Positions 16,781 to 36,159 of a stretch of DNA of 64,000 nt are shown here, piece by piece. The notes below the pieces were generated by a model. The model was not told the DNA's origin and searched no databases. It worked only from the letters and a program-made list of their open reading frames with translations. Both the position numbers and the translations under genes were made by a program. The stretch lies in the NCBI GenBank assembly GCA_017472925.1, contig JAFUNS010000047.1, forward strand, positions 1 to 64,000, written 5' to 3'. Every line of letters begins with the position of its first letter. Position 1 is the stretch's first letter. This DNA comes from Bacteroides sp. Its GTDB lineage: Bacteria > Bacteroidota > Bacteroidia > Bacteroidales > Bacteroidaceae.

Positions 16781-16788
16781 TACATTTG
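16781..16788 (+). promoter_or_regulatory. -7 box in front of the structured leader
   Basis: TACATTTG fits TAnnTTTG. A start near 16795 would put the whole nested inverted repeat 16895-17014 into the 5' leader of the HTH gene, about 255 bases long. The -33 box is weak. Confidence 0.5.
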
Positions 16789-16894
16789 CAGTTACATCTT
16801 AAAAACAGAATTGTAAATTGTATAAAAATAAACATTTGGAATAGCGTTTCCATTTATTACTTATTGAAGATATTGAGCTTTTGCTCTTATTCTC

Positions 16895-17014
16895 TATCCT
16901 GAAAACCGCCAATTTGATGTGTACGAGAATAAGCAGATGAAGGTTCACGTCCTTGCTGGGCGTGAACTATTTGTGCTTATTTGTACACAAGGTACTTGGC
17001 GGTTCCTCAGGATA
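16895..17014 (+). ncRNA. Five-tier nested hairpin, probable structured RNA leader
   Basis: Five pairs of arms nest in order: 16895-16902 with 17007-17014 (TATCCTGA), 16905-16912 with 16996-17003 (ACCGCCAA), 16918-16924 with 16983-16989 (TGTGTAC), 16928-16935 with 16974-16981 (AATAAGCA) and 16943-16952 with 16958-16967 (GTTCACGTCC, one G:U). All but the last are perfect, separated by short bulges, with a five-base apical loop. The element ends 35 bases before the HTH start codon. It could be a cis-acting RNA of that gene or an independent small RNA; I know no named family that it fits. Confidence 0.7.
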
Positions 17015-17049
17015 AAATAAGTCTCGAATGGTTCCGCCTTTTTTATATC

Positions 17050-17280
17050 ATGATACACATCGGCAAGATAATAGAAGAAGAACTTCGCAGTCAGGAACGT
17101 AGTGTAACCTGGTTGGCGGAAAAACTGTATTGTGACCGAACCAATGTGTATAAAATCTTCAAGAAGCGTAGTCTCGATGCCGAATTGTTGCTTCGCGTCT
17201 CTCATATTCTGCATATAAATCTCTTTCTTTACTATAGCGATGAATATGTCCGTGTGGAGGATGCGGCTACAGAAGTGTAG
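17050..17280 (+). CDS. Small helix-turn-helix protein
   Basis: A protein of 76 residues that is almost only an HTH of the lambda repressor (XRE) type: IGKIIEEELRSQERSVTWLA, then CDRTNVYKIFKKRSLDAELL and RVSHILHINLF. The frame is open from 16981, but 17050 (MIHIGK) gives the domain's natural start and clears the nested hairpin. Its own targets are unknown; the surface-protein operon starting at 17365 is the nearest candidate. Confidence 0.8.
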   Translation: MIHIGKIIEEELRSQERSVTWLAEKLYCDRTNVYKIFKKRSLDAELLLRVSHILHINLFLYYSDEYVRVEDAATEV

Positions 17281-17324
17281 CCAATGCGGCCACATTTGAT
17301 TCCTTAATTAACGTATGTTTTCCA

Positions 17325-17332
17325 TACTTTTG
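17325..17332 (+). promoter_or_regulatory. -7 box of the peptide/fimbrillin operon
   Basis: TACTTTTG fits TAnnTTTG and lies 32 bases in front of the 41-residue gene. The nearest upstream TTTG (17295-17298) is 26 bases away, longer than usual, so the -33 box is doubtful. Confidence 0.5.
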
Positions 17333-35346: not shown

Positions 35347-36159
35347 ATGAAAAAGATAGTTGGAATAGCCATTTGTGCTGCCTTGTTTATGTCAAGTTGC
35401 GGTGATGGAGGTGAGAAAAAAGCCCAACTGCATTTGCAGAAAGCTGAAGTTGCTTTGGCTCAAGAGAACTTTAGTGAGGCCAAATTGCAGATAGATAGTA
35501 TAAAGGTATTGTATCCGAAAGCTTTCGAAGCTCGCAAGCAAGGTATCAAGCTGATGCAACAAGTGGATTTGAAAGAGCAACAAAAGAGTTTGGTGTATCT
35601 GGATAGTATGATGTTGGTGAAACAACATCAGTTGGATTCCATTAAGGGAAAATTTGTTTTGGAGAAAGATACTGCTTATCAAGAGATTGGCAATTGGTTT
35701 TATCCGACTCAAGTGGTAGAAAAGAATTTAGGTCGCTCTTTCTTGCGTGCACAAGTCAATGAATTGGGGGAAATGTCAATGACCTCTATTTATTGTGCCG
35801 GAGGGAGCATTCATCATACAGCGGTAAAGGTTAGCGTAGGCGAATTGTTTGCCGAGACTCCTCCAACTAAAGATAGTTATGAAAGTACGGATTTAGGTCG
35901 TCCTATTGAAAAGGCTGATTACAAAATGGGTGAAGACGGGGGTGTGATTGGTTTTGTGGCTTCAAATAAAGATAAGAATATCCATTTGTCATTCTTGGGC
36001 GATCGCACTTATAAAACGACCATGCAACCCAATGACCGCAAAGCTTTTGCCGAATTGACAGAATTGGCGCGTATTCTTTCAGCAATGGAACAAATCCGTA
36101 AAGAGCAGAAAGAGGCCAACTTGAAGATTCAGTTTGTAACAAGAAAAATGCAGGAATAA
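35347..36159 (+). CDS. Lipoprotein of unknown function with coiled coil
   Basis: Exported lipoprotein of 270 residues; lipobox MSSC (Cys18). Residues 25-60 look like one TPR-like helical pair (AQLHLQKAEVALAQENFSEA), residues 65-105 form a coiled coil, and the rest is mixed beta (ALIKE strands such as DGGVIGFVASNKDKNIHLSF). The last 30 residues are again helical and charged. No named family is recognised. It is widespread in Bacteroides as far as I recall. Confidence 0.75.
   Translation: MKKIVGIAICAALFMSSCGDGGEKKAQLHLQKAEVALAQENFSEAKLQIDSIKVLYPKAFEARKQGIKLMQQVDLKEQQKSLVYLDSMMLVKQHQLDSIKGKFVLEKDTAYQEIGNWFYPTQVVEKNLGRSFLRAQVNELGEMSMTSIYCAGGSIHHTAVKVSVGELFAETPPTKDSYESTDLGRPIEKADYKMGEDGGVIGFVASNKDKNIHLSFLGDRTYKTTMQPNDRKAFAELTELARILSAMEQIRKEQKEANLKIQFVTRKMQE

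Follow-up and report, generated by a model that had tools for sequence, protein, structure and literature searches.

A candidate two-state RNA family in the 5′ leaders of regulator and exported-protein genes of Bacteroidota

A structured leader before a small regulator gene

The DNA considered here, called the window, is a stretch of 64,000 nucleotides from a Bacteroides contig. On its forward strand, to which all features described below belong, a small HTH regulator gene of 76 aa is located at 17050–17280, recognized from its ORF, from homologues that carry the same leader, and from a structural model of the protein with five helices (mean pLDDT 89). Pfam gives no match to the protein at a threshold of 0.1, and among nine homologues one is matched by HTH_3 at 0.0097 and one by RHH_5 at 0.0064. 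The gene is preceded by an element that spans 16886–17044, and further upstream by a promoter-like −7 box of the form TAnnTTTG (TACATTTG) at 16781–16788, exactly where the initial annotation had placed one. Between box and element is a palindrome, GGAATAGCGTTTCC (16838–16851), which appears as GGAAAAGCGTTTCC or GGAATAGCGATTCC in close relatives and is possibly an operator or an extra hairpin.

Five nested arm pairs had been described at 16895–17014, and these are present in the sequence, together with an apical loop of 5 nt at 16953–16957 in the computed fold. From the outside inward, P1 pairs TATCCTGA with TCAGGATA (16895–16902/17007–17014), P2 pairs AACCGCCAA with TTGGCGGTT (16904–16912/16996–17004), P3 pairs TGTGTACGA with TTGTACACA (16918–16926/16981–16989), a further pair joins AATAAGCA and TGCTTATT (16928–16935/16974–16981), and the innermost joins GTTCACGTCC and GGGCGTGAAC (16943–16952/16958–16967). 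This structure is called the rod below. Its stability is far beyond chance: the fold of 16880–17030 reaches −66 kcal/mol, whereas shuffled sequences average −32.1 (z −9.4) and 0 of 200 equal it.

Two parts of the original description had to be revised. The extent given for the hairpin was too short, because the element reaches from 16886 to 17044 and has a conserved GAGC-TTTT-GCTC just 5′ of it (16875–16886). Furthermore, the statement that no T run follows was wrong, given that CCGCC-TTTTTT is found at 17034–17044, five bases before the ATG at 17050. When the full element is considered, four strands can be distinguished. Strand 1 (CTTATTCTC, 16886–16894) is able to pair with the start of strand 2 (GAGAATAAG..GTTCACGTCC, 16925–16952), which is the antiterminator strand and pairs alternatively with strand 3 (GGGCGTGAACTATTTGTGCTTATTTG, 16958–16983). 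Strand 3 in turn has either strand 2 or strand 4 (AAAATAAGTCTCGAATGGTTCCGCC, 17014–17038) as its partner, and strand 4, the terminator strand, is followed directly by the U run at 17039–17044. According to relatives' sequences and to folds of growing prefixes, the GAGC-TTTT-GCTC segment either makes a small hairpin or lengthens strand 1 when strand 1 is paired with strand 2.

For the leader in the window, the computed energy of the rod is −85.0 kcal/mol, compared to −58.0 kcal/mol when the pairing of strand 3 with strand 4 (3:4) is enforced and the P2 contact is not counted. In growing-prefix folds, the pairing of strand 1 with strand 2 (1:2) appears first and is later displaced by the rod.

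A role for this RNA in controlling the genes behind the regulator had also been suggested. These were named a peptide/fimbrillin operon in the initial annotation, and Pfam names none of the four ORFs scanned there. This suggestion is not supported, because tblastn with the first three ORFs behind the HTH gene reached a best E of only 0.42 at the eight other loci first found (1.37–1.5 kb behind the leader were covered), and because the operon carries its own TAnnTTTG box at 17325–17332. A GTATG..CATAC palindrome at 17313–17332 overlaps this promoter-like box (TACTTTTG) and is possibly an operator for the small peptide/fimbrillin-like genes.

Covariation of two mutually exclusive folds

Construction of a covariance model from homologous leaders had been put forward as a check, and the arms do covary, which supports an RNA. 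In 38 aligned sequences, 95.7% of the 1476 cells of the rod are paired, and cells with a double change number 132 against 37.4 after shuffling; of five measures, four were never reached in 500 shuffles and one was reached twice. The alternative fold, 1:2 together with 3:4, has 94.9% of its 1212 cells paired and a both-sided change in 18 of its 32 pairs. None of its measures was reached in 500 shuffles, and sliding drops the pairing to 42–50%. Individual helices of the same 38 sequences can be inspected as well: 98.8% of cells are paired between strands 1 and 2, with both-sided change in 4 of 9 pairs, while the values are 100% and 6 of 6 modelled pairs for P1, and 88.4% and 5 of 6 modelled pairs for P3. 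The 5′ arm of P2 (AACCGCCAA) is nearly invariant in close relatives, and 7 of 8 P2 pairs are constant among the 38, but P2 covaries in the wider family. Overall, the five-tier rod as initially described is real and conserved, and a second conserved fold exists beside it.

Evidence of another kind comes from duplex energies computed for strands of the same element and for strands swapped between elements. For 67 sequences (L116, L078, and L048 having been left out), own duplexes are at −29.85 kcal/mol against −23.36 for swapped ones with strands 3:4, and −25.62 against −21.80 with strands 2:3, and 0 of 2000 permutations gave such a difference in either case. A wide set of 80 sequences, chosen by hand to limit repeats, yields z −14.3 for 1:2, −14.4 for 2:3, −20.7 for 3:4, and −18.8 for P2 (each 0 of 5000), whereas the control pairings are flat (strand 2 with 4, z 0.5; strand 1 with 3, z −1.2). 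Most of these 80 were found with the covariance model R1, which was made from the 38 sequences and in which strands 3 and 4 are represented by sequence but not by pairing. Both 2:3 and 3:4 are possible at −15 kcal/mol or lower in 79 of the 80, and a 1:2 helix at −5 kcal/mol or lower is possible in 69, the remaining 11 being weak. The same signals are found in 20 weak matches from outside the order Bacteroidales, from which one short opposite-strand match had been left out (1:2 z −5.8, 2:3 z −6.1, 3:4 z −6.7, P2 z −6.2; each 0 of 5000). There, the control of strand 1 with 3 gives z −0.6, whereas some signal is left in that of strand 2 with 4 (z −2.7, 23 of 5000).

The 3′ arm of P2 is set within a further conserved feature. 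It is flanked by GGn..nCC, the third position of which pairs in 76 of the 80 wide sequences (U-A 56, C-G 11, U-G 9), as compared to a shuffled mean of 67.2 and 0 of 5000 shuffles that reach 76. In the window these flanks, called P4, are GGUAC..GUUCC (16991–17006) and have U-U at the third position. A core made of P2 and its GGY..RCC flanks is conserved in the 5′ leader, for which binding of a protein is as probable a function as a riboswitch-type aptamer.

An indication of the strand that carries the structure comes from pairs of the wobble type. Cells with G.U outnumber those with A.C by 168 to 13 in the rod and by 140 to 17 in the fold 1:2 plus 3:4, an excess that fits an RNA of this strand. 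Together with the covariation, the promoter box, and the location before gene starts, the ratio of 168:13 bears out the earlier proposal of a folded RNA in the 5′ leader. It also speaks against a dispersed DNA element, such as a MITE, a REP-like palindrome, or an attC-like site. Such an element would be suggested by multiple copies (as many as 27 in a genome), by long inverted repeats, and by the fact that some copies in one genome, G412, are identical. A DNA element is nevertheless very improbable given the one-strand ratios, the covariation of two alternative pairings, a fixed position and orientation before genes, and copies that are mostly diverged: for 44 elements in five genomes, the median identity is 0.59–0.77. 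Where copies are alike, in G412, the flank behind the element is as alike as the element itself, as is expected for duplicated genes. Furthermore, blastn with the window element, which detects only close sequence, gave no match in 50,697 phage records and a single one among 72,556 plasmid records. A strand-symmetric palindrome of the MITE or REP type was rejected on the basis of the G.U asymmetry and the position before ORF starts. Dispersal of the element to unrelated places had been named beforehand as a sign of a DNA repeat, and dispersal is literally what was found, but it is not read in this way because the copies covary, precede gene starts in a single orientation, and mostly differ from each other even inside the same genome.

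Two exclusive helices that share a strand and are both conserved are what is expected of an attenuator, and the 3:4 stem located directly before the U run is an intrinsic terminator in form, as one state of two. Attenuators of the trp or erm type, in which the fold depends on whether a ribosome occupies a short ORF over strand 1, come to mind because the strand logic (1:2 and 3:4 versus 2:3) is that of the trp type. However, ORFs that begin with an ATG no more than 70 nt 5′ of strand 1 and end inside the element are found in only 9 of 153 family members, whereas base-shuffling of the upstream stretches predicts 55.7 (ATG starts only), and the window has no ATG in 16797–16885. This depletion of entering ORFs makes a leader-peptide mechanism unlikely, to the point that we give it next to no weight. 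A short ATG ORF inside the rod was considered separately and set aside, as it is not kept in relatives.

Distribution of the family and the genes that follow it

The leader was found in eight of the 60 genomes searched, the window's own included, as nine sequences, two of them from the own genome. In all nine cases the gene directly behind is this small HTH gene, while the surroundings vary. When the HTH protein was used for a search, 197 relatives were obtained and the best 80 of these were kept, and the leader is recognized by sequence at 36 of the 80 loci. Among 26 distinct leaders listed, 23 end 0–18 nt before the ATG, and for the remaining three the distance is 33, 145, and 248 nt. A second covariance model, R2, from which P3 is missing owing to alignment gaps and which served for this leader count alone, matches the plus strand above its best reverse-strand score of 40.2 bits at 40 of the 80 loci, approximately ten of which were among its own sequences; L098, L108, and L092 fall below that score. 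The other half of the 80 loci have other leaders or none that was recognized. By eye, nine of the HTH loci (L029, L031, L032, L033, L041, L042, L055, L061, and L119) have a second leader type, GGCGTGGGCT..GGGCAATGCGAGRGCC..CCCACGCTTTTTT, which likewise ends in a T run and is possibly a sister RNA that differs in its apical part.

The element is also encountered far beyond this gene family. R1 has matches at E ≤ 0.01 in 136 of 393 genomes of the order Bacteroidales (120 of 325 among good genomes) and at E ≤ 1e-6 in 34 of 395 genomes of the phylum Bacteroidota. Of these 34, two belong to the order (one being the window's own), another 18 to its class, and 14 to different classes. These counts are lower bounds because the filters were strict and few candidates were scored per genome. 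The E-values of R1 are rough, and a strong member reaches 44 bits on the wrong strand. The shared core is visible by eye in seven loci of 64–75 bits, and the 20 weak matches from outside the order (49.6–59.8 bits) all have GGn..nCC, and 18 of them have at least four consecutive U near the end. Outside the order there is also a subtype (L246, L250, L251, L255, L260, L262, and L264) with an apical GCGUCC..GGACGC and a strand 4 that ends in ..GUUGCGUCC before the U run, in which the sequence is different and the four-strand logic is kept.

Copy numbers can be high. Six genomes, picked because matches in them are numerous, contain 5, 19, 27, 6, 8, and 25 matches at E ≤ 1e-5 when 150 candidates are scored per genome. 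The last number belongs to G412 (L165–L184), where 11 of the 20 elements fetched sit 52–55 nt before members of one exported-protein family (..WDNSWRDDFNWDAA..), and these elements are accordingly not independent of each other. The single place among plasmid records is a copy of 82.4% identity at 124243–124456 of OY725981.1, an unannotated record of 125 kb listed as a plasmid of Phocaeicola massiliensis.

Additional family-wide counts were made for ORF position, U runs, promoter boxes, and entering ORFs, with the weak L116, L078, and L048, two reverse-strand matches, and L155, which overlaps L154, left out. At least six T in eight are present near the 3′ end of 136 of 153 members, against 15 of 153 for a control stretch, and a clear U run is absent in the other 17 (in L046 and L118 by eye). 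A TAnnTTTG box comparable to that of the window occurs within 160 nt 5′ of the element in 94 of 153 members; for the reverse strand the count is 30 of 153. The distance from box to strand 1 is 60–100 nt for 64 of 101 boxes. These numbers bear on the idea that the element is a constitutive barrier, a terminator or insulator against upstream transcription whose rod is a by-product of strong complementarity. The 3:4 helix with its U run is strong and terminator-like, as a barrier would need, but a promoter box of its own precedes many elements, and strands 1 and 2 as well as P1, P2, and P3 covary, none of which a plain terminator needs. We therefore regard a mere barrier as decidedly unlikely.

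A same-strand ORF of at least 60 aa starts within 100 nt of 85 of the 110 elements that have at least 200 nt behind them, compared to 15 of 118 in a mirror control; the remaining 25 elements have no such start. The 87 genes located within 110 nt comprise 19 HTH genes, 13 lipoprotein-like genes, 36 with a crude signal-peptide score (the background of which is 6 of 38, and among which the G412 paralogues are included), and 19 others. For 15 of the 19 HTH genes, the start is 1–4 nt from the end of the model match. Pfam finds no family in more than two of the 55 proteins scanned out of 57 listed downstream, and the families include BspA-type LRR, CsgG, BACON, and a response regulator. DNA methyltransferases of three kinds are each seen once, as an EcoRI methylase, a type III methylation subunit, and an N6_N4 methylase. 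By eye, the elements L133, L134, L135, and L142 are 44–53 nt before DNA methyltransferase-like genes, and outside the order L161, L163, and L164 are 231–288 nt before genes whose start resembles that of SusC/TonB-type receptors.

Not every element is so closely tied to a gene. In the window's own genome, the two copies of a tandem pair (L154 and L155; contig C35 of G000, 35348–35551 and 35648–35847) are each preceded by a TATCTTTG box. Between them, no ORF of at least 50 aa starts, and 158 nt are left to the contig end. By eye, the pair adjoins AAA ATPase-like and PIN-type protein-like genes. At L045 and L052, the element is 145 and 248 nt before the HTH gene, with a promoter-like box in the gap. 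These four elements look like free RNAs. They give some encouragement to the view that the family consists of separately acting small RNAs, for which 3:4 would be the terminator and the rod the functional fold, and where the gene behind would be expressed by rare read-through or from its own promoter. The promoter box and the U run that elements possess are in accordance with this view as well. Against it stand the frequent ORF starts within 100 nt, the distances to genes, which are often alike (as for the HTH genes and for the G412 copies), and a strand 4 that competes with strand 2, which a free small RNA does not need. Overall, small RNAs of this kind are an unlikely explanation for the family, if one that deserves to be kept in mind.

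A probable attenuator and its relation to known systems

The reading that we prefer, with a probability of roughly 70%, is a cis-acting transcription attenuator in which the rod permits read-through and the fold 1:2 plus 3:4 terminates. What is observed directly comprises both pairing schemes with their covariation, the run of U, the promoter box, and the place before gene starts. Transcription would begin near 16795. In one state, strand 2 pairs with strand 3, P1 to P3 close, and strand 4 is kept off strand 3, such that no terminator helix would precede the U run and RNA polymerase would read into the gene. In the other state, strand 1 would be paired to the beginning of strand 2, and strands 3 and 4 would join in a helix of about 20 base pairs that leads straight into the U run and would act as an intrinsic terminator. 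P2 could persist in this second state as a contact between two hairpin loops.

By computed energy the rod is far more stable, and formation of the terminator may therefore need help or be confined to the course of transcription. Because the rod is stable and displaces 1:2 in growing prefixes, the default is probably read-through. A factor bound to the conserved core (P2 with the GGY..RCC flanks) would select the fold, and termination would presumably result when 1:2 or the core is held by a binder. Candidates for the trigger include a small molecule, a protein, possibly the HTH protein itself, or an RNA.

A broader proposal can be made, to which we give about even odds: that these RNAs form a switch class found throughout the phylum Bacteroidota, absent from Rfam and present in up to 27 copies per genome, which sets the expression of exported proteins and of the small HTH family to one shared signal, through a four-strand exchange of terminator and antiterminator that uses no leader peptide and has a conserved loop-pairing core. 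How common the element is, along with covariation of both states, suggests a regulon of surface proteins and regulators. The three competing strands and the core provide a defined handle for finding the ligand or protein, and might also be adapted as an expression switch for laboratory Bacteroides strains. There is perhaps a general lesson for the annotation of such genomes, which is that “long hairpins” should be inspected for a second fold before they are filed as terminators.

The initial annotation knew of no named RNA family that the structure fits, and Rfam scans agree. Rfam 15 over the whole window at the gathering threshold yields 5S rRNA only, and the leader at E ≤ 10 gives two matches, both at chance level. 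Scans of 18 and 12 relatives at E ≤ 1 produced four and three matches, all below the gathering score and all to miRNA, snoRNA, and Brucella sRNA models. The portions of the open-licence PMC literature that were available hold no description of this RNA that we could find.

Several reports nevertheless touch on similar subjects. FopS and GibS resemble the present family in being multi-copy RNAs of Bacteroidaceae, and FopS is described, in the available part of its report, as a single-stranded 5′ stretch with one terminator hairpin that has been deposited in Rfam (PMC11697453). Identity with these small RNAs was rejected on that description, since here the rod covers the element, there are two states, and Rfam gives no match, whereas FopS has an unpaired 5′ seed and a single terminator hairpin. 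In the portion available of the study by Fremin and Bhatt 2021, HTH-XRE genes occur within 5 kb of 100 candidate structured RNAs and palindromic Bacteroidetes candidates are predicted as terminators (PMC8040213). Given the HTH-XRE genes near those candidates, some members of the present family may be among them; the two-state model does not appear in the text available. The Bacteroides-2 and GUCCY-hairpin motifs of Bacteroidetes carry no Rfam number in the accessible text of Weinberg 2010 (PMC2864571) and lie outside what Rfam scans exclude. Long 5′ UTRs are noted in a B. thetaiotaomicron transcriptome, in whose available text this element was not found (PMC7366714), and 64 structured 5′ regions are given for a Flavobacterium in the part available of another report (PMC9723704). 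Overall, the RNA family is apparently undescribed, and it has no match in Rfam 15.

To our knowledge, few cis-regulatory RNAs special to Bacteroidota are known. Riboswitches with an expression platform combine a conserved core with an exclusive terminator and antiterminator in a 5′ leader. The family resembles them in its exclusive helices and perhaps in its conserved core, and it differs from them in that it has no Rfam match and that the genes behind it encode regulators and exported proteins and do not belong to one pathway. Attenuators of the trp type set 1:2 and 3:4 with a U run against 2:3, and this four-strand logic in a leader is shared by the present RNA. Unlike the trp type, the RNA shows no sign of a leader peptide, and it has a long rod (P1–P3), a conserved core, and a place before many unrelated genes.
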